Below are positions 6,919-45,662 of a DNA stretch of 64,000 nucleotides, in pieces. A program made the position numbers and the translations under genes. The stretch is from Globomyces pollinis-pini (lineage: Eukaryota > Chytridiomycota > Chytridiomycetes > Rhizophydiales > Globomycetaceae). The notes under the pieces were generated by a model, which was not told where the DNA came from, ran no database searches, and saw only the letters and a program-made list of their open reading frames with translations. The stretch is from assembly GCA_025399215.1 (NCBI GenBank), contig MU621128.1, forward strand, positions 1 to 64,000, read 5' to 3'. Position 1 is the stretch's first letter; each line of letters opens with the position of its first letter.

Positions 6919-8096
6919 CTATTTTCTCCTTGAAAACTTTACATATAGGACGATAAACATGATGAATACCATAAAAAGTAATACAACAATGCAATATTTA
7001 GCTTTTGAGTTGGATTGATACTTTTCAGCCTGTTTAATAATAAGAAATTGATTTTATCATTACCTTCAAAAGCTCCTCATGTGCAGATTCCAGTGCCACA
7101 TTCGTTTGCTCAATATTATAATCTATTCTATCTAAAACTGTTCCTTGATCAATCACCTATGGGTTATTCAACTACCCGATTACCATCGTTTGCAATTCTT
7201 GAAATATCTCTGCAACAGCCATGATCGACTTTGCAATTTCATTGATCTCCTTTTCCCGTTGAGTAATGGCATTTTCATTTGATGCAACTACAGCCATTTG
7301 GGCATCAGTAAAGACCTATAAAGTGTTAGATTTAAAACTAACTGCATCTTCATCTGCATCTTCTTCATTTGTAGCAAAGTTAGTTGCTGCCCCTTGTGTT
7401 TCCCGTTTACGCAGTTCTGTACATTAGCTGGAACTACTTAGTACCTATCATTCAGTATAGATATATCAAAACCTAGAGTTAGATATAATGCTTGAATCTA
7501 CTTTTTAGATATTTAGATTGCGACTTTCTAAACTTAGTTGATAACTCCTGTAGTCTTGAAGCAAGTGAATTTTGAATGTTCTTTCCCAAAACATCACTTT
7601 GATGTGATCCACCGTGATGCGATATATTCTTTACTAAACGTTGTGTGTTTTGAAATAGCTTAAATGAGCTTTTGTAGCATTGGTACCTTGGTTAAGTCTT
7701 CAGTAACTTGGTCTATTGATTTCTCCTCGCCAAACTTATCATCAAAACCTGGTAAAGCATGTCGTTTGTACAAAGAGTCCATCAAATTTACTACTGATTA
7801 GATACTGACTTGATACTTTTCGCCGTTATACTATTGAATGACTCCTCTATCTAGCCAATTTAATTGATAAATATTAACCTCTTCTACAACATCAACCCTG
7901 CTTCATTAACTGCCATAATTTTATACCATTTGGGAGGGAGTAGTGACATTTCAACTACAACCTCTCCTTGATGAACGACATTACTCATCAATCCAGCATG
8001 TTCAGATGTATCAATATCAGGGACTCTAGATTTTCCTCCTCTGTTAATTGAATTTCTGAAGTTTAAAAACAGCAAAGTTCTAGAACGAGTTGCCAT
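6919..8096 (-). CDS. TLG2: Syntaxin-16 / Tlg2 Qa-SNARE
   Basis: Qa-SNARE of the trans-Golgi/endosome fusion step. From the ATG at 8096 it opens MATRSRTLLFLNFRNSI, as in syntaxin-16, followed by PPKWVDVVEEIEESFNS, the family's PPKW segment leading into the Habc domain. The SNARE motif (about 7150-7320) includes QREKEINEIAKSIMAVAEIF and DQGTVLDRIDYNIEQT. The C-terminal anchor (KYCIVVLLFMVFIMFIVLYV) is followed by KFSRRK and stop. At least seven introns interrupt it, one of only 23 nt (GCGAAAA then gtatc...atcag). One 85-nt intron (7501-7417) consists of three abutting GT-AG units. It probably shares a promoter region with NAC alpha upstream. Confidence 0.9.
7417..7501 (-). other. Three tandem GT-AG intron units in syntaxin-16
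   Basis: Reading the minus strand, units 7501-7473 (29 nt), 7472-7445 (28 nt) and 7444-7417 (28 nt) each begin GT and end AG, and abut with AG|GT junctions. Removing all 85 nt restores the frame: SKYLK joins KLRKRETQGAATNF, matching the syntaxin-16 order. No exonic base lies between the units. Confidence 0.75.
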
Positions 8097-18900: not shown

Positions 18901-20696
18901 CAGTTGGTTTTGGTAAATCTGGTAACAGCAAATTAGATGAGACTTGTTTTTTCTGATGCGATTGAAGTTCAGTTACCCATTCGTCTCGATCTTCCTTTGA
19001 ATTGGTTTTCCAACGATATAGTGTTTTCCCAATATTAAACTCAAAAATCAATTGGTCGACATTGCATCCTCGAATATTGTTTAATGTTTCTAGGGTTGAT
19101 AATGGTGTAAGACAAAATTGATCAGAATTTGTTCCCATATAAAACCGTTTTGATGACAATACAACCCAACATTTAATCCATTCGCTACTCGTCCAATAGA
19201 CTTTTTCCAATTCAATATATCCTCTCTTCATCGGTTTACTTTTTGAAGGCTCTCTACTAACATTTTTTTTAGTAGATCCATGCACACTCAATGGTTTTTC
19301 CTCTTCAATAGCAACAATTGGGTTAAAATCATCAGTGAACCATTCTTCCGAGTTTTGTATAGGACTAATGGTCAATGGTGGATAAGCCTGATCATGATTG
19401 AAATAATTGTCCTCTGCTCTTCGTGGAACATAAATAGAATTCATATCGATCGTTTTATCATTTCTAATCGTCAAAATAGTTTTAGTACCCTAAGCAAATG
19501 AATCTAGCAATCTCCGACTTTTCAATTACACAATTTGATTTTGGCATTAATCCAACAGTGTTCTAAACTTGATCAATGAATTAATATTACATATTGTTTT
19601 TCTAATTTAAGCATGGATATGAATTTCAAATGTCCATCATCAAGTTCAAACACACGAATACCCTCCCCTTTGCTGGTAGCGTATACAACTGGTAATTGTG
19701 CATCACAAGTTGGTTGTAGAATCCCCACTCCCGTCTCAGGAACGGTATATTTCTCCAAAAATGACAAATTGCGAAGATCAAGTAATCGTAATTCTCGTTG
19801 ATGTTTGTCAAACCCCGAGGTTAAGATATATGGAGTCATATTCACCTGACACACCTTCATTCCTTTGTTTGGTGCATGTTCCGTTGGCCAAACCTACAAA
19901 TCAGCAATTCATCGATACCTTAATAGGGAAATTATGGTTTCTAGGATCAAATAATTGAACCGTAGCATCATTCATTCCACAAATAATCAAATCACCTTGA
20001 GCACGGAAAATCATATTGGAAGGTATAGCAGCATTGACCGAATCCATTGTCATCATCTCCTCATATCGATTGATATTCCATAATTTGATGGTTTGGTCAA
20101 TCGATGCTGTTGCTATTACTTGTTCACATGTAGGATGAAATGCCATGATTTCCACTCGTTTATCGTGACCTGCCAAATACGATTTCACCATATCATACTC
20201 ACCCACATCCGTTTTTGGGATATCCCATATTCGTACCAAATTATCCGATTTCGTAGTCGATGCGATAATATTGGTTGTTCCACTACCAAATTCGAAATCA
20301 TAAATTTGTTTTCCGTGTACTATCATCATTACATTACAAAATTGTTACTTAATTGAATGGGTGCATATTTATCCATTCGAATTGAATCTTTCACATCATA
20401 ATGAGTTTTTGTTATTGGTAATATTCCAATACTTGTTCCTGATACACTTGGTATTGCAATTGATACCCCATTCGCCTACCATTTAAACCAATCCAGATCA
20501 TACCTTTGATTAGTCATTATCGTCGTATTATACCTTAAAGTTTAGTTCCATTTATAAATCATTATACCTTTAGTTTAGTAGTACATAAATTATCAATTTG
20601 GATTTGATTATATAATTGTTTAGGATTTGGAGATGTAAAGACATTTTTGAATTTCGAGATTCGCGTTGAATTGAAAGTATTTGAATTTGAATTCAT
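15994..20696 (-). CDS. Villidin-like protein: coronin WD40, PH, gelsolin repeats, headpiece
   Basis: A single gene with the domain order described for Dictyostelium villidin, an actin- and membrane-associated protein. Reading from 20696, the coronin start FKNVFTSPNPKQLYNQIQ is followed by WD repeats (NLVRIWDIP, HPTCEQVIATASIDQTIKLW, DKHQRELRLLDLRN). The coronin-specific linker GLMPKSNCVIEKSEIARF is followed across a 25-nt intron by NDKTIDMNSIYVPRRAED and EEWF, which ties the WD part to the rest. PH-like modules follow (YIELEKVYWTSSEWIKCWVV near 19240; two more below). Gelsolin-like segments (FIWFGIGSVSHPRKW, QMYAWHGSNS, YVWFGYHSS) come next. A villin headpiece ends the protein, with YLSDEEFLTEFGMAKLDFCK, LPQWKREQLKKKVGFF and TGA. 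About 1,400 residues; the WD-to-PH and gelsolin-to-headpiece joins were checked by frame. Confidence 0.85.
20476..20567 (-). other. Three tandem GT-AG intron units in villidin
   Basis: The 92-nt intron between TTKLK and ANGVSIAIP divides into 20567-20534 (34 nt), 20533-20504 (30 nt) and 20503-20476 (28 nt). Each starts GTAT and ends AG, with AG|GT junctions. The three starts share the near-repeat AAGGTATRAT. Removal of all 92 nt is in phase. Confidence 0.7.
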
Positions 20697-21718: not shown

Positions 21719-23535
21719 TCAAGGTATCACTTGACTTGCATAACACTGTTTCGTTCCATCCACGCACTCACTAGACGATCAGCATATCAATTAAAAACCT
21801 CAATTCCAATTCCAAATCAACCCACTTTTGGATTTTACTCATAGATTTAAAATCCACATCAATAACCTTCAATTCATAAAAAATTGGTGGATTGGTTTGA
21901 ATGATACCACTAAGGTTAGTGACTATGGATACCTATGGGGAGTGATTTGCGATATGGTGGGTGGATGGATAGGGGTCCGTATATATTGTTGGTGATTTGG
22001 TGGGATTGTTGTGCTGAGTGTAATGATTATGGATAAGTCTTTTAGCGATTGTGATATGATAAACTTTGATATTTCAGTGAGAGTTTCGTTATTGACGTTT
22101 TGTTTGTTCGTGTGACTAGCATCTGCATTTCTATTATTATGGCTGGAATTCGTATTTCCAATGTCACTGGATTCCATACTTATTTTCGGATCGACATTAT
22201 CTACCTCTACTTCATCTTGGTTATAGTTATTCTTGGTTTTATTTACAGCAGCATTAGTATTATTGAAATCTTTGACAGAAAATTGATTCAATTCAGACAT
22301 GTCCAGATTAGTGCTTTGAGTCTTTGAATGTAGATCCAAATAGGTTTCTGGATTATTTACAGGTAAATCCAGAGCGGTACATTGGCTATTCACATCAAGA
22401 TTAGGAATAGTATTTTGAGCCTTTAGTAGAAGATTGAGAGTATCATTTTGACCCAAGGAATCTAAATCAAAAGGACCAACAGATAAATCTTCAGGAAGAA
22501 GGTAATCAGCAGAACGATGTAGAAATGGACTGCTAAAGAGACCATTCTGACAAGAATTGTGTATATGGTCGAAGAGCAAATTATCGAGAGTGGGGATATC
22601 CGTATCCAAGGACTTGACCAAAGCATCGATACGATAAATATCAACATGAAAGACTTTTTGTGCTAATTTTAAGCGATCCAATAGAGAGTTAGAGTATAAA
22701 ACTAGAGCAAGGGTATCGACAAAAGATAATGAGTCTGAAAGAGACCATATTGAATCCATCTAAACTTAGATGAGAGTTGGTTACCTAGAATAAGGTATGA
22801 AATTCTGTACCTAAATTGAGAGGAGAGATAGATTACCTAAGGTGAGAAGATAGTGCCATTACCAATGAAGGATTTTCAATTTGAGATTGGTTTACAAAAA
22901 CTTTTAGATTATTACTTGGGGTTTGAATTAAATTTTGAATAGCCAAAGAGATATAGCTCAAATTATTGGAGAAGAGTAACATTGGGCAATATTCTAGAAG
23001 GATAAGATAAACAATAGTACTGGTGGAGTAGGATGAGTGACGCGACCGAAGTACTGAATGTCTACAAAAACGACAATGATTATTGTAATGATCAGGACAG
23101 AAACCCCATTTTGGCTTACATTAGAAAGAATGAATATTACTTTAATTTCGATTGAGATACCATTAGATGAGAGGGCATTAGGTAATATGGTAGCGTGATT
23201 TGGTAGTAAATGCAGGGACGATAGAGAACGATGAGAAGGTCTATTTAATATTATAGTATTTTTAATTTTATCCAAGAAATCGATTGAAGGATGTATGATT
23301 GACTGGTTGTTAAGATGACTTAGTAGATTACATTTTTTAGAGTATAAGAATAGTGTAAAGTACAATAAGATATGAATAAATGAAAATGGGGATGAAAAGT
23401 TGAATTTGAAGATTTTAGTAATCTTAATACTATTGGTAGTGAATTATGAGCTAGTACAACATTTGCATTTCCTGATATTAAATTAAATCAAATACCTTCA
23501 GCCAAGTAAATCCAATCATCTACTACTAATTCCAT
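21719..23535 (-). CDS. IPK1: Inositol-pentakisphosphate 2-kinase (IPK1)
   Basis: Makes InsP6 from InsP5. The start MELVVDDWIYLAEG joins GNANVVLAHNSLPIVLRLLK, the N-lobe glycine-rich pattern (GEGNKSLVVAH in animals). After a 29-nt intron comes the catalytic block GISIEIKPKWGFCP, the IPK1 EIKPK signature, with a Cys/His cluster (CPDHYNNHCRFCRH) matching the zinc site. The helical part LALVLYSNSLLDRLKLAQKV follows a 103-nt intron made of four GT-AG units. An Asn-rich insert (about 22080-22340) precedes SLKDLSIIITL and the final VIDVDFKSMSKIQKWVDLE. The last exon is ambiguous: the frame stops at 21771, or with one more 28-nt intron at 21719. Head-to-head with ATG8, tail-to-tail with HDDC2. Confidence 0.85.
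22760..22862 (-). other. Four tandem GT-AG intron units in IPK1
   Basis: On the minus strand, 22862-22837, 22836-22811, 22810-22785 (26 nt each) and 22784-22760 (25 nt) each read GTA...TAG and abut directly. Units 1 and 2 match at about 18 of 26 positions, and units 1, 2 and 4 share a TCTC-rich middle. Excising all 103 nt joins ENPSL to MDSIWSLSDSL in phase, keeping the IPK1 order. Excising only units 2-4 leaves the wrong frame. Confidence 0.75.
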
Positions 23536-24278: not shown

Positions 24279-26054
24279 ATGGATTTGAATCCATTTCATG
24301 AGTTTGTTCATGTAAATACTGAATTCATTTTAAAAAACTATAGTCAACTACATTACCAATATTCAAATTAAATCCTAATCAATCTTCTATTATACAGTCT
24401 CCAAAGGATTTCTTAACTCAATTAAAAGTAATTTCTCTCTCTCTCATCATTCAGTTGGGTATTCAAAATGCAAACAATCGTATCATAATAGCTTCTCTAT
24501 ACATAGGATCCGGTGAAGAGGAACTAATTGATTTATTAAACACCAAATTATCTACAAATTCTAATTTAAAATTAGTAATCTTGATCGATTACTTTCGTGG
24601 TTGTCGTTTAGATTCTAATAACGTTTCTTCATACACTCTATTATCTCCATTGGTCAAAAACTTTCCGGATCAAGTCAAAATTCACTTTTATCACGCTCCT
24701 GTCGTGTCAAATCTTGTTAAACGTATTGTTCCTCCACGCTTTATCGAAGGTATTAACTACAAGCGCTATCATATCGTTAAGTCTTTCTGCATTCATGCCA
24801 AATCTACAGTCTTACTGAAATTACCTCATACTGTTTTCATTCTTACTCTTAACGTCTTACTGACTTTAAGCCGTAATATTTCATGCTAAATTCTAAATTC
24901 TATATGTCTTACCGATTTTAAAATGTTGTGCACGATTTTAACCCATTGGACAGGATTTGGATTACAACACATCAAAACATACGGATTTGATAATGACATC
25001 ATAATAAGTGGTGCTAATTTAAACAAGGACTACTTTGAAAACAGACAAGATCGGTAATTCTAACAACACTAAAATCAGATACATCCAAATCAAAAACCAC
25101 GAAAATTTATCTGATTACAATCATCAACTCATAAATACCATTGGTGATTATTCATATACCATACAGAAAACAGAATCAGGAATAGAATTGAAATCTCCAT
25201 TTAATGGGGATCGGAAACAATTCATCAACAATTTTCGTAATAGGATTTTACAATTAACAGATGATTGGAATCGTAAAACAACAAAGATACGGTCAAAATA
25301 TTTAAATCAAAGCGATTTTTCAATCATCATACCTGCTTTACAAATGTATCCATTTGGAATTCAACAAGATGAATTGACTTTGATGAATTTACTACAACAT
25401 TCTATTCAAAATTTAAATCAGTATTGAAATATTTTGATTATTTATGTTATAGTACTATTCATATTGCTTCCGGATATTTTAATCTCCCACAACCTTTAGA
25501 ATCATTACTATTAAAATCACAAGCAGATATCAAACTATTAACTGCAGCCCCAACCGTAACCAAATATTTTTGTAACAACAGGCCAATGGATTTTATAATT
25601 CCAAAGGAGTTTCGAAATATATCCCATCAGTATTTGATCATTCACTCATCATCAGGCATATTCATATCTCCAATGGTTATTCATGTCCAAAATCAATTCT
25701 AAAACCACCAAATCATCTATAACCTTTTATGAATATCAACGGTATATCAACATTTGACTAATTAATAGACCGCAATGGACTTGGCATGCCAAAGGAGTAT
25801 GGATTATCCCAAAACATTCCAATTCACTATTGACCGTCATTGGATCTTCAAATCTCAATCATCGATCTTGGACTAGAGATTTGGAAACTCAATTGTATAT
25901 CATATCACATGATGACTTGTTGACAAAATCGTTGAAATGTCATTTGGATAGTTTATATGCGGATTCACGACCGGTTGATTTAACTATTGTTGGTCGTCGT
26001 CGATTTCATGTTGTGTTGAAATTAGCTACTCGTATCATTAGAAATATGCTATAG
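24279..26054 (+). CDS. PGS1: Phosphatidylglycerophosphate synthase (PGS1)
   Basis: Mitochondrial CDP-DAG:glycerol-3-phosphate 3-phosphatidyltransferase, the committed step to cardiolipin; phospholipase D superfamily with two HKD motifs. MDLNPFHEFVH joins STTLPIFKLNPNQSSII, then NNRIIIASLYIGSGEEEL. HKD1 is FGLQHIKTYGFDNDIIISGA followed by NLNKDYFENRQDR; HKD2 is WHAKGVWIIPK followed by TVIGSSNLNHRSWTRDLE. Frame restoration needs several introns of 25-32 nt, for example joining APT to ANGFYNSKGVSKYIPS. One intron (24750-24953, 204 nt) is unusually long for this window. No cleavable presequence is obvious. Ends RRRFHVVLKLATRIIRNML. Confidence 0.88.
24750..24953 (+). other. Exceptionally long 204-nt intron in PGS1
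   Basis: The frame ...PPRFIEG breaks at a GTATTAAC donor and resumes at ACAG|GATTTGG as FGLQHIKTYGFD, matching PGS1 spacing. The interior stays open for 46 codons in one frame but resembles no part of PGS1. No C-box (TGATGA) is seen, so a C/D snoRNA is not supported. Confidence 0.6.
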
Positions 26055-26130
26055 TAATGGATTTGGAGATTCGAAAAATCTGAAATAAAATGAATCATCA
26101 ATTACAATTTTCTTTATTTATTTTGTATCA

Positions 26131-27208: not shown

Positions 27209-30200
27209 ATGATACAAACACCATTGATGGGAACATCAAAAAAACCATCAGAATATATCAAATATAAACAGAAAGCAAAATTTAAACTACAAGCATCAAG
27301 TGATAACAAAATCCCATCAGTGATTACAGAATTAATACCTGATGAAGAGAAAGTATTACAACATTGTCAAGTCGCGTATGATAAACCATTATTTCGACCG
27401 GAACCTTCTAATTTAACTTTACAGGGATTTATCCCTTTCAAAACATATGAACTTGTGATTAGTTTTCGTAATATTGACAAGGTAATCATTGGAAAATTAA
27501 TCATTAGGTATAAATGACGAATATAATGATCTATAGTTACCAAGAAAAATTAGATTAGAACCTTCGATTAGTCCATACTTTTCAGTTCAAGGTTGGAAAC
27601 GACAATCATTACAATCAGAAAAAGTAGCTCCAGGCATGGAAGTATCCTTTGTAATCAAATTTCAACCAGAAGAGAATGTAGATTATCTATTAGATTTAAT
27701 TTGTATTACTGAACGTGAAAAATTTATTGTACCTATTCAAGCTATAGGAGCTCGAGGTAATTTTAAATTCAAACTCATCAATAGGTATACTAGATTTACC
27801 CGATCAGATCTTGTTTTCTGAAGTTCCAGTTCGATTCTTATCTACCAAAACCTTACTAGTTCGTAATATTGGAGATACAGCCGCTAAATTCGATATCCAA
27901 GTAGATTCACCATTCACCATATCACCTAACCATGGATTCTTGGAATGTAATGATAGTATGCAACTTTCTTTGGATTTCTATCCTCGAGTATTTCATCATC
28001 ATTAATGGTTATAGCAAACTGGTAGTTATAATTCTAAAATGGTGGTCAAGTATAGTTCTGGTGATGAAATGGTTTTGGATGTCATTGGAAGTGCAGAAAA
28101 TTTATTGATTCGATTAGATAAAGGACATCTTAAAGTTGAGAATACAATTTCATTAACCACCACCAAAACATTCCAAATCTTTAACCGATCCAATCATATG
28201 GTATGCATGAATATGTATGAACGTATTAGGTCAGTTTTGCTTGGAAAAAATGTGTAAATGAAATGGAGGAAGAGCATATGAAAGCCAAAAGACATTTACA
28301 ACTGCTAAAATCAGAACAGGATGAGATCAATGCACTAGGTTCTACTAAAACTCAAATGCTAGATGTTTCTTTGCTTAAACGAAAATATAAGGTATCTTGA
28401 ATGTATTTGTATTGAGACTGTAGAATCAAACAAGGGAGGATGAATGTCTCCCAGTACACTACGAAAATCCTGTGTTCAAAATACAACCTCTACAAGGATC
28501 TATATGGCCTGGTTCATCAGTAGAGATCACTGTTCTTTTCAAATCGTTAATGGTTGGAGAACATAATTCGATCGCATATTGTGAAGTGGAAGGACGAGAA
28601 TCACGATTACCATTGCAATTAAAGGTGATCTATTGGTTGACTAAAACTGTCAGGGTATTGCTAATGGACCTGAAGTTGCTTTTGCGTACAGTCACTTTCA
28701 AATTGGGGAAATCTTTATTAATACTCCCCATGAGTATGAGGTAACCTTAGTTTTTATTAAGCATAGATTATGCTTGAAAATCATGGGGTAATACCTACTA
28801 AATTCCAATTAATGGAACAAAAAACACTATTTGGACCATGCTTTAGTTTCAATCCCAGTTCAGGAAATATTCTGGTTGGAGAACAGATTTTAATCACAGT
28901 TACATTCATACCTGAAATGCTAGGTACTTTCAAAGAAGAATTTCAATGGGAATTGGAGGTAATATTGACTTTTGTTTACATTTAGGGTGGTACTAAACCA
29001 TTAGTCGTGATCTTTGAAGGAAATACAATTGGACCCACCTTTAAATTTGATGTAGAAAAGTTACATATTCCTCAAGCATGTTATGGATTTTCTGTTGAGC
29101 ATGGCTTTCAATTGGAAAATACATCTCAGATCCCAATGGGTTATCAATTAGAAATTTTATCTGACGATCCATCATTAATAGACGACTTTACGCTAATACC
29201 AACGAGTGGTGTTATAGACCCACTATCGAGCAATTCGATTATTTTGGAATTTTTACCAACCAAAATTCAAACGTACTCACTGTCTATTGCTGTAAACATT
29301 GACAATATTGGTAGAAATTTACTGCAATTACCAGTTGAAGCTGAAAGCATGGTCCCTGAAGTAACTTACTTTATTCTTAACATTATCAATAGATCGTTTT
29401 GAAACAACCCATGATTGAACTTGGTGATTGCTATTTAGACTACTCTTATGTGCGGACAGTGGAATTTGTTAACGACACGGAGCATTGGGCAAAGTTTACC
29501 ATCGACTATAAAGATATGTCAAGGAACAGTGTTTACTCTTATTCATTTGATGTTTCAACTGGAGTCATTGAACCACACTCTATTTTTTCGATTACTTTAG
29601 AGGTAAAGTTGAAGAGACTTGGAACGTTAAACTTCCCAATCTTTGTATCCATTGATGGTTCAAGTGGATCTCCTCTGATTTTGGATATATCCGCAAATGG
29701 AATTGGACCAAACGTCACTTTATCTAGTACAGAATTAAACTGGGGAAAAATGAATGTTTTAACAAACATTTTCCAGACACTCACGTTGAATAATGAATCA
29801 CCAATACCTGCGAAATTTAACTGCTCTACAATAACCGAATCTCATGTTTTTCAAATTGACAAGCAATATGGAGAAATTCTCCCGGGAAAGACATGCGATA
29901 TTAATGTAACAGCATATCTGGATGATACTGTTAAGTTTACTGACGTATTGAAAGTTGATATTGGTTCTAGTAAAACTATTGATGTACTACTAGTTGCAAA
30001 AGGACAAGGTCCCACAATAGTGTTTGACGAAGGGTTGAAAAGCATTGCTTTCAACGAAGTTTTCAGTAACAGGGAATGCTCCACTCAGTATACAATGTAC
30101 AATAAAGGAAGACGAACGCAGCATTTGAGCTGGATACATATGTCAACAAAAGACCCGGAAGTCACTGCCAATCAAATTTTTGAAGTCATTCCAAATCGAT

Positions 30201-42975: not shown

Positions 42976-44769
42976 TTATAGCTTTGCTGCTTGCCTTCGT
43001 CGATTGATTCTTACTCTTGGTAGCTCTCGTACAATATGAATCTTTTTTGGCATACAAAATGGAATAGATTGTTCAAGCCATTGTCGAAGCTCTGACACCG
43101 ACACTTTCAATTTCGGCTTGAGTAAAACTGCTACTTCAATATCTTGACCAGATAATACACGAGGAACACCATAAAAAATGGCTTCTTCCACGGCCGGATG
43201 TTTCAACAATACCTAGTCGGATCAGATTCTATTAATAAGTTACTTGTTGCAGATCTACAGCAGAATATATTTTGCCATCATGTTTAAATGGAACAAGTTT
43301 CCTACCGACTAACATCAAATATCCTCTCTCATCTTTCCATCCCATGTCCCCTATTTTGGTCAATAATTCCAATTTACCTGTTTTAAACCACCGTTTTCCA
43401 TTTATCATTACAAAACAATGATCATTTGCATCATCATTCCAATATCCTATTAATTAGTCCCAACTCCATAGAAAACCTGAAAAAACTGTTGATCCATTGA
43501 CGCAAACTTCTCCAATGCCTCGTGATATTGGTGCATTATTGTGGTCAAGCAAACACACTGAAACGCCTATTGGTTTTCCAACAGAACCGAATTTCCTAGT
43601 ACCACTAGGAATAATGGAAGCAATTTGATGCGAAGTTTCAACCATTACGTAAGACACCACAATCGGGACTTGAAAAGCCTACAAAATTCATTATGATTCA
43701 ATCAAACCTGTTCTAGAGACAAAACTGTATCTCTTTCAGCGTCCAGTCCACATGTTTGAATAAATCGCATACTATTTGGTGGTGTTGGTTTACCATTAAG
43801 CTTTGACAAAATTAATTTGTGCAATATTGGTGTGGTCGAATACCAAGTAGCCTATCATTAATTATTGATTTATTCACTTTGAACATTGATATATTCTTCC
43901 AAAAATCGTCAAAAGATAATGCTGGTGGCAAAATAACAGAGGCACCTGCATAAAAACTAGCCAAAAGAACTCCAATTAATCCATAAGAGTCTGTATGTTA
44001 GTGATTGTATATATACGATAGAGCGGCATGACTTGGTAAGTGAGATCCGATGCACCTAATGTGAGGGAGTTGCATATATTGAAAAGAGATTCCAAAATAT
44101 TGTCATGGGTTAGAGGGACCAATTTAAAATCCCCAGATGTACCAGGAGTTTTAAGTAATACAGCAATATCAGAATCTTGATACTGATATTGTGCATTCCG
44201 ATCACCTGAAGCAGTTAAAGGAGTTGATACACCAATGTTGGTGATTGTACAAACAGGTTTGACTGTTTTGATCTGATGGCTAGCAATTGGAGATATTGTT
44301 CTTATTATTCTTGAAGTTGATTCCCAATGTTGAGGTACCAATTCCACGACAACTTTAAAGAGAGGAATTGACAAAGAATTGCAAGCAGCAGCGATGATAT
44401 GAAAATTCTCAAAAGTATCTGAAGTGATGACGAATCTAGGAGAAACGATTTTTAGATGATTGATAGTATCATTAAGGTTATTTGTAGTGTTGATAGGATT
44501 TACTATAGCACGAACGGCTACTATAGCGAAGAAAGAACAAACGAAATCTATAGAATTTGGTAGGAATAAAGATACCTAATATTAATTGATAAGAATGATA
44601 CTAATTCACCAGGGTTTAAATTACAGAAAGGACTAGTTTGTTGTAAGAATTGAGTAGCATGTCGAATACTTGAATAATGTATCTTATTATTTAAATCTGG
44701 TAATATGATAGCAGGAGAGAAAGAATCAGTTAATATTTCAGTTAAATTTCGATATAATTTCTTTTGCAT
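42976..44769 (-). CDS. Peroxisomal AMP-dependent CoA ligase (Pcs60-like)
   Basis: Adenylate-forming ligase that activates an acid as its CoA thioester. From the ATG at 44769 (MQKKLYRNLTEILTDSF), conserved pieces include LLKTPGTSGDFKLVPLTHDN, the P-loop; IASIIPSGTRKFGSVGKPIG; GEVCVNGSTVFSGF; GWKDERGYLMLVGRK (across an intron near 43300); LKHPAVEEAIFYGVP; and RELPRVRINRRRQAAKL. The C-terminal AKL is a peroxisomal PTS1 variant of SKL. Motif order resembles yeast Pcs60/oxalyl-CoA synthetase. The P-loop is TPGTSGDFK rather than TSGTTGxPK, and the usual A10 PxTxxGKI(D)R segment reads PRVRINRR, without the canonical Gly-Lys. About 530 residues over roughly eight exons. Confidence 0.75.
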
Positions 44770-44934
44770 TGAAAATAGTTTAAAATTTTTCTGATCTTTG
44801 AATCAAAATGACGAAAACTAAAAGAATTATTTCTTTTTGTTTCTTGTTTTTTGTTTCTTGTTTTTATTAAAGAATTATTTCTTTTTGTTTTTTGTATTTC
44901 TTTTTGTTTCTTTTTATTAATAATTTCAATTCGA

Positions 44935-45393
44935 CTAAAAACCGTGAACTTTAATCTTATCCTTGGTGGCTAAAAATATTTTAAAATTAAATAATTTACC
45001 AATCTCTTCAGTAGTTAAAAATGCTACAGTCTTTTGTCTTTGATCTCCTGACATTTGAATAACTTGTCCCATTTCATCATCCTGTACTATATTACCAATA
45101 CATCCAAATTCCTATATCATAAAATTATTATTAACATTACTTTCTTAAAAGCTTTTAATAACCTTTTTTGATCAATATCAGATGGTAATCCTTGAACTGT
45201 TGTAATGGTTTTACGTCCTTGACGTTGTTGAATTCGAATGTCTGATATTAATTAGTTGTCTAAAAACTTTACGAATATTTCCAGTAGATTCTAATTTATC
45301 ACTCTCTCCAGTATCTGCAAATGGATCATATGTTCCAAGACTATTCAATTATTAGTCAAACAATTTTAAATACTTTTGAATGTTTTCAGTCAT
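44935..45393 (-). CDS. SUI1: Translation initiation factor eIF1 (SUI1)
   Basis: Controls start-codon selection in the 43S complex. Five tiny exons join in phase: MTENIQNLGTYDPFADTGES, then NIHIRIQQRQGRKTITTVQG, LPSDIDQKRLLKAFKK, EFGCIGNIVQDDEMGQVIQM, SGDQRQKTVAFLTTEEI, and the end TKDKIKVHGF. These are the family's hallmark stretches (HIRIQQRNGRKTLTTVQG; KVHGF). About 110 residues. Its start faces radial spoke head 4/6, 269 bp away. Confidence 0.93.
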
Positions 45394-45662
45394 CACTAAA
45401 TTGGAAAAAAAAAATTATACTACCTACATAAAGGTAATGCTGAAATATAATGTTGAATCCAAGCAACATTCAGATTCTATAACACATAATTGAAATGAAT
45501 ATATATTTTATTCAATTGATGCAAGTATGACTGCAATGATACGTTATAGATAAATACAAAAAAACTATTTATACTAAAGAATATCAAATGATGATTCACT
45601 AGCTCCCTGTATTTTTTGTAGCATTTTCTTTTCGCGTTTTCAAATCACGAAGGTTGTTTGTT

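Follow-up and report, generated by a model that had tools for sequence, protein, structure and literature searches.

Four abutting GT-AG units in one gap of the IPK1 gene

How is a coding sequence restored when the segment that interrupts it appears to consist of several complete introns laid end to end? The question is raised by a gene on the reverse strand of the window, by which we mean the whole 64,000-nucleotide stretch of Globomyces pollinis-pini DNA that was analysed (GenBank assembly GCA_025399215.1, contig MU621128.1, positions 1 to 64,000). The predicted product of this gene is identified as IPK1 by a match to the Pfam family PF06090 (Ins_P5_2-kin; E 6.9e-52) over residues 10-498, which hence spans the junction discussed here. 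The upstream coding exon (22863..22993, minus strand), placed from the limits of the gene model, the sequence and the Pfam match, ends ...QIENPSL; the downstream coding exon (21933..22759, minus strand), placed from the gene model, the sequence and the predicted protein of Globomyces sp. JEL0801, starts MDSIW.

Between these exons lies a block of 103 nt (22760..22862, minus strand) that an earlier note on this DNA had described as four abutting GT-AG units, and the coordinates, lengths and boundaries given there all proved exact. The units occupy 22862-22837, 22836-22811, 22810-22785 and 22784-22760 (26, 26, 26 and 25 nt); each begins with GTA and ends with TAG, and all three boundaries read TAG|GTA with no exonic base. 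Inspection by eye finds YTNA in every unit, with exactly 6 nt from the A to the unit end, and identity between units 1 and 2 at 18 of 26 bases in an ungapped count. When unit interiors were compared with gaps allowed, similarity was 0.60 for units 1 and 2, 0.65 for units 2 and 4 and 0.30-0.50 for the remaining four pairs; the comparison level for these values, the 99% point for pairs of units from different arrays, is 0.565.

Fusing the flanks gives the open frame ...ENPSL|MDSIW..., and each of the 15 possible non-empty combinations of retained units brings in a stop codon 9 to 44 codons beyond the junction. Thus the IPK1 frame does need the removal of all four units, as had been claimed. The one match in a search of public proteins was the predicted IPK1 of Globomyces sp. 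JEL0801; G. pollinis-pini itself was not represented. The JEL0801 protein (97% identity over 71% of the model) reads ENPSLMDSIW, with the two exons directly joined, and so backs complete removal of the block. Among solved structures, the best alignment to IPK1 stops just before the junction.

Abutting introns recur across the genome

We examined a sample of 264 kb, made up of the window and 20 ten-kilobase stretches at fixed positions in the 18.5-Mb assembly, with a custom, strand-resolved gene finder in which introns may be 18-45 nt long and zero-length exons are permitted but not favoured. It yielded 147 genes with 751 introns, whose lengths peak at 28 nt and of which 704 fall within 24-35 nt; the IPK1 units thus have the size of ordinary introns, as the earlier note had observed. 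Between successive introns there were 27 zero-length exons, against 125 exons for all lengths from 1 to 60 together, or about 2 per length. These 27 zero-length exons make up 18 arrays of 2-5 units, 4 of them in the window and 14 elsewhere. The window cannot serve as independent evidence here; the 20 other stretches by themselves supply 14 arrays in 200 kb. Extrapolation to the whole genome gives about 1,260 arrays (Poisson range 750-2,000), and in the sample arrays account for about 2.5% of intron sites (18 arrays, 706 single introns). An initial training run, on both strands and with a wider intron range (15-120 nt), called numerous long introns judged to be false, and it was replaced; even there, exons of length zero numbered 40 in the last round, where each length between 1 and 29 had 4-20.

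The three window arrays beyond IPK1 were placed by the gene model and sequence and are absent from the earlier note. One of three units (34, 30 and 28 nt; 20476..20567, minus strand) lies in a gene that we take to encode a WD40/PH/gelsolin-like protein, and a second of three units (29, 28 and 28 nt; 7417..7501, minus strand) in a gene presumably for a syntaxin-like protein. The last has two units (26 and 29 nt; 27482..27536, plus strand) and falls in a gene modelled at 4,981 amino acids.

The abundance of such sites can also be counted without the gene finder. Over the whole genome, pairs of the form TAGGTA...TAGGTA spaced by 10-20, 23-33, 36-46 and 51-61 bases number 23, 332, 30 and 123, respectively, and the counts are highest where the spacing equals one intron or two. 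At the same four spacings the backward pattern shows no peak (221, 215, 182 and 196); it is the commoner of the two at three of them and gives no base rate for TAGGTA, only its flatness being used here. The excess of AG|GT sites at intron spacing, whose absence the earlier note had named as a refuting result, is thus strong at one intron length and returns as a second peak at two. Triple sites number 137, against 55 for the backward pattern. The first 30 triple-site matches represent 21 distinct loci, IPK1 included, and when IPK1 is left out 18 of the other 20 parse as arrays of at least two units in a gene on the strand of the pattern; at two of these 18 (L011 and L026) the antisense reading scores higher. 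The remaining two loci gave no unit (L006) and one unit (L030).

A variant of the finder that accepts introns of up to 150 nt, with 3, 10 or 30% of the prior placed on 46-150 nt, allowed long introns to be compared with shuffled sequence, as had also been proposed. Under these three priors, 19 of 78, 17 of 107 and 17 of 151 of the long blocks can be divided without remainder into GT..AG units of 20-42 nt, whereas dinucleotide shuffles lead one to expect 1.4, 1.1 and 1.4. None of the blocks that were called as single long introns (57, 87 and 131) can be divided in this way, with 0.2-0.5 expected.

It is hardly credible, in light of these counts, that the arrays are chance AG|GT sites or an artefact of gene finding. 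The finder does err on its own account, since it mis-split a long array in the PHYHD1 gene (below). However, the finder-free counts over four spacings, the excess of triple sites over their backward pattern and protein homology all oppose such an explanation, which we rejected on the strength of the backward patterns, the wrong spacings, the dinucleotide shuffles and the long-intron models.

Inner units carry the signals of ordinary introns

We scored a branch-site motif, defined as YTNAY with its A 6-11 nt before the intron end. It is present in 463 of 706 solo introns (66%; shuffled 25%) and in 70 of 99 inner units that were picked solely by TAGGTA spacing (71%; shuffled 26%); the latter set is 100 of the 332 TAGGTA pairs at intron spacing, 99 of them distinct. 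Stretches taken at the wrong spacing have the motif in 10 of 30 cases (33%; shuffled 23%, with 48 of 400 shuffles reaching that value). In the sample arrays, 10 of 18 final units have it, and so do 20 of the 27 units before them. Inner units bear the branch-site motif as often as ordinary introns do. The distance from the branch-site A to the intron end peaks at 6-8 nt in ordinary introns.

Array units of the sample are 24-37 nt long; they start with GTA in 35 of 45 cases and end with TAG in 30 of 45, against 593 and 530, respectively, of 706 ordinary introns. Across the 36 arrays compared below, all 82 internal boundaries are AG|GT, which the method required, and 64 are TAG|GTA. As a separate observation, the 706 solo introns have a weak donor signal past GTA, and their branch motif sets in sharply where the A is 6 bases from the end.

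These features bear on the main rival explanation, which treats each block as a single longer intron, excised at once between its first GT and its last AG; past duplication would then have left the AG|GT sites inside it as non-functional relics. Single-step removal would yield an identical mRNA and protein, and there may be some single introns in the 46-150 nt range: a model with lax length limits returned 18 that have strong coding flanks, together with 12 arrays and 358 short blocks, and if these 18 are real the length gate is not absolute. Single-step removal fails to explain why inner units retain their branch sites and their length. Relics would be expected to lose the branch site, yet it is found in inner units at the ordinary rate, and the sites lie at intervals closely confined to intron length. 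We consider this explanation unlikely.

Protein homology supports removal of whole blocks

Several arrays interrupt genes whose products can be aligned to known proteins. The gamma-tubulin gene has four units between FFYQ and ADDAHYIPRA, and its unaided gene model aligns without gaps over residues 8-180 to tubulin gamma-1 (PDB 8va2). The PHYHD1 gene contains an array of ten units and 285 nt (contig C12:42085-42369; positions 1475-1759 of stretch L012), between MLIFK and QPDIGGE. The gene model had retained a piece of this array, and the flanks were joined by hand before alignment; the hand-joined protein is gapless across the junction when aligned to the solved PHYHD1 structure PDB 2opw, with small gaps elsewhere. 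We take PDB 2opw to be the human protein. The proteins of Boothiomyces, Kappamyces and Batrachochytrium salamandrivorans, read by eye, also run through the PHYHD1 junction uninterrupted. In VPS35 (three units) a four-residue alignment gap lies three residues upstream of the junction, and in MCM8 (five units) a two-residue gap adjoins it. For CDC23 (four units) a homology match is listed over residues 12-517, but the alignment printed is that of another protein. Eight abutting units around position 1500 of L005 (contig C7), in a gene that presumably encodes a GDSL-type lipase, were parsed by the gene finder alone. Alignments thus support the view that whole blocks are removed from the predicted gamma-tubulin, PHYHD1, VPS35 and MCM8 messages, and complete removal, as proposed for IPK1, is supported by homology for several arrays, in the case of IPK1 itself through the JEL0801 protein.

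The PHYHD1 array also illustrates what such structures can do to annotation. The residues of the public G. pollinis-pini model of this gene (BC833DRAFT_47563) map onto L012 in exact pieces, and they show that two of the ten units, 4 and 8, are treated as exons in the model; the 57 nt involved are in frame and add 19 residues to the protein just before a conserved HVD. These residues are missing from the three related chytrid proteins that were read. We take the retained units for an annotation error, since the relatives lack the residues and our own finder, which was trained on the very sequence analysed, too kept a similar stretch when it mis-split the array, an error of the same kind. An annotation program that is barred from zero-length exons would be expected to keep PHYHD1 units as exons.

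One might instead suppose that the units are optional micro-exons or intron-retention switches. The stops in all IPK1 retention combinations are what regulated retention would lead one to expect, and in the public PHYHD1 model two complete units are retained in frame. But a frameshift or stop is equally common in the array units of the sample (43 of 45) and in ordinary introns (609 of 655), so that arrays are not set apart in this respect, and the absence of the extra PHYHD1 residues from three chytrid relatives likewise speaks against their use. We regard regulated retention as very improbable.

Similarity among units and the origin of arrays

The earlier note had suggested tandem duplication from the likeness of units 1 and 2 of IPK1. 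We compared units within a set of 36 arrays and 118 units (the 18 sample arrays and 18 from triple-site loci). Mean similarity is 0.435 for adjacent units and 0.357 for units of different arrays, and 12 of 82 adjacent pairs lie above the between-array 99% level where 0.8 would be expected; at least four of the 12 are in PHYHD1. That array contains an identical pair, units 2 and 3 (28 bases), and the interiors of units 1 and 8 show 83% similarity. A pair of any kind above the 99% level is found in 7 of the 36 arrays, and the remaining 29 have none. The proposal of tandem duplication thus holds up for some arrays and finds no such pair in the majority; the 29 may be old duplications or have another origin. 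When the 285-bp PHYHD1 array, one of the 36, was searched against the genome with very common words skipped, it was itself the single match; for this one array there is no sign of an introner-like family dispersed as near-identical copies over unrelated loci.

The plainly repeat-like PHYHD1 array might suggest a DNA minisatellite of about 28 bp that sits in introns by chance, its splice motifs being incidental. This seems to us extremely improbable. The 29 arrays without a pair above the 99% level nevertheless consist of units that run from GT to AG at intron length, inner units keep their branch sites, and the 18 of 20 triple-pattern loci described above are multi-unit arrays within a parsed gene and on the strand of the pattern.

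The surroundings of arrays give some indication of how they may have arisen. An exonic AG stands directly upstream of 11 of the 18 sample arrays, against 177 of 706 solo introns (p 0.0015). An intron that is preceded by AG and also ends in AG would become exactly an AG|GT array if one intron length were duplicated in tandem. Other possible reasons for the upstream AG excess are a better donor context or a missed upstream unit. Sample arrays also lie nearer the gene start than single introns do (mean relative position 0.33 vs 0.50, p 0.016). Exons that follow arrays seem to start with GT too often (12 of 36), but we make no claim of this: the sample has only 3 of 18 (p 0.25), and the remaining 18 arrays come from a pattern search that can of itself enrich for flanks with AG or GT.

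A proposed model of stepwise removal

Our main reading of these structures, of their genome-wide excess and of their branch-site motifs, to which we assign a probability of about 0.7, is that each block is a head-to-tail series of complete minimal introns which were duplicated whole and are removed unit by unit, and that about a thousand such arrays are present genome-wide. They would have originated by tandem duplication of whole introns, perhaps eased by an upstream exon that ends in AG, and the copies would then diverge while selection for splicing acts on them. If the spliceosome sees introns across themselves and mostly accepts those of 24-35 nt, such intron-wise recognition would mean that a block is excised one unit at a time. 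We infer from the arrangement of splice sites that this unit-wise removal proceeds by zero-exon (recursive) splicing, and stepwise ("ratchet") removal is likely. With AG|GT at every boundary, excision of any unit or run of units would yield the finished junction or else a similar array with fewer units, and excision in any order, with any skipping of internal sites, would give the same mRNA. Because all orders would lead to one mRNA, extra units should be nearly neutral, and this near-neutrality could let introns multiply in place.

A broader reading, for which we put the odds only a little above even, is that intron concatemers are a regular feature of this chytrid lineage, in which tandem copying of whole introns, a minisatellite-like copy number and unit-wise splicing in any order would combine to make multiplication near-neutral. 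If so, the arrays provide a concrete route by which intron number may grow without altering the protein.

Relationship to known splicing systems

Ratchet points and zero-length exons are established in recursive splicing in Drosophila and rat tropomyosin, as the literature describes (PMC2773006, PMC6110457). The earlier note's reading of the IPK1 block as a zero-length-exon array of minimal introns is supported, and the juxtaposed sites are present. The recursive systems share with the Globomyces arrays the juxtaposition of 3' and 5' splice sites without an exonic base, and removal in several segments is known for them where for Globomyces it is deduced from sequence (PMC2773006, PMC6110457). 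Fly recursive sites divide very long introns, and are found in most fly introns over 40 kb (PMC6110457). In contrast, Globomyces segments come in runs of at most ten, each about 28 nt long and of typical intron size for this genome, and the blocks measure 51 to 285 nt rather than the length of a very long intron. We file the arrays as a form of recursive, zero-length-exon splicing that is distinct in its minimal unit size.

Human UBC has tandem, dual-specific AGGT sites, arranged head to tail at fixed spacing within a repeat, and a series of AGGT sites in a head-to-tail repeat is thus common to UBC and the arrays (PMC10809524). The UBC segments are described there as 228-nt in-frame coding monomers that may be retained or removed (PMC10809524). 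Globomyces units are unlike these, in that nearly all of the sample units (43/45) shift the frame or hold a stop; retention that preserves the frame is not found in IPK1, and the two PHYHD1 units stay in frame together.

The stwintrons of fungi contain more than one U2-type intron in an intervening sequence and are removed by successive reactions, and such complex, multi-intron intervening sequences are shared with Globomyces (PMC7138796, PMC8469720). In Lipomyces starkeyi a stwintron can be excised in one or two steps (PMC7138796). Stwintrons are described as nested, with the internal intron breaking a splice element of the outer one and so fixing the order (PMC7138796). Globomyces units differ in that each is complete from GT to AG, in series.

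In intron gain of the type seen in Cryptococcus and in potato RdRp, which follows an AGGT model, the repeats include coding sequence. The Globomyces repeat unit is instead intron alone, with no coding sequence. Excerpts report that repeat expansion creates introns in Cryptococcus (PMC2395259) and that tandem duplication of existing sequence makes them in potato RdRp (PMC4974935); the appearance of new introns from duplicated existing sequence is common to both (PMC2395259, PMC4974935) and, on our main reading, to Globomyces. The word "tandem" is absent from the main text, as far as it was available, of a survey of fungal introns that includes chytrids (PMC8476143). Among the matches listed from the open-licence literature, as judged by titles and the openings of abstracts, no account of minimal-intron arrays was found. 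Zero-length exons have hitherto been known as helpers for very long introns, and here they occur in a genome of minimal introns; the arrays form a natural set of tandem introns from which splicing order, directionality and length limits should be directly readable.

Two minor observations concern other gene models of the window. The model at 42976-45469 (minus strand) seems to join an eIF1-like N-terminus to an AMP-binding enzyme and is probably two genes merged, and two adjacent models at 24279-26083 (plus strand) resemble parts of what we take to be one gene for a phospholipase-D-type phosphatidylglycerophosphate synthase.
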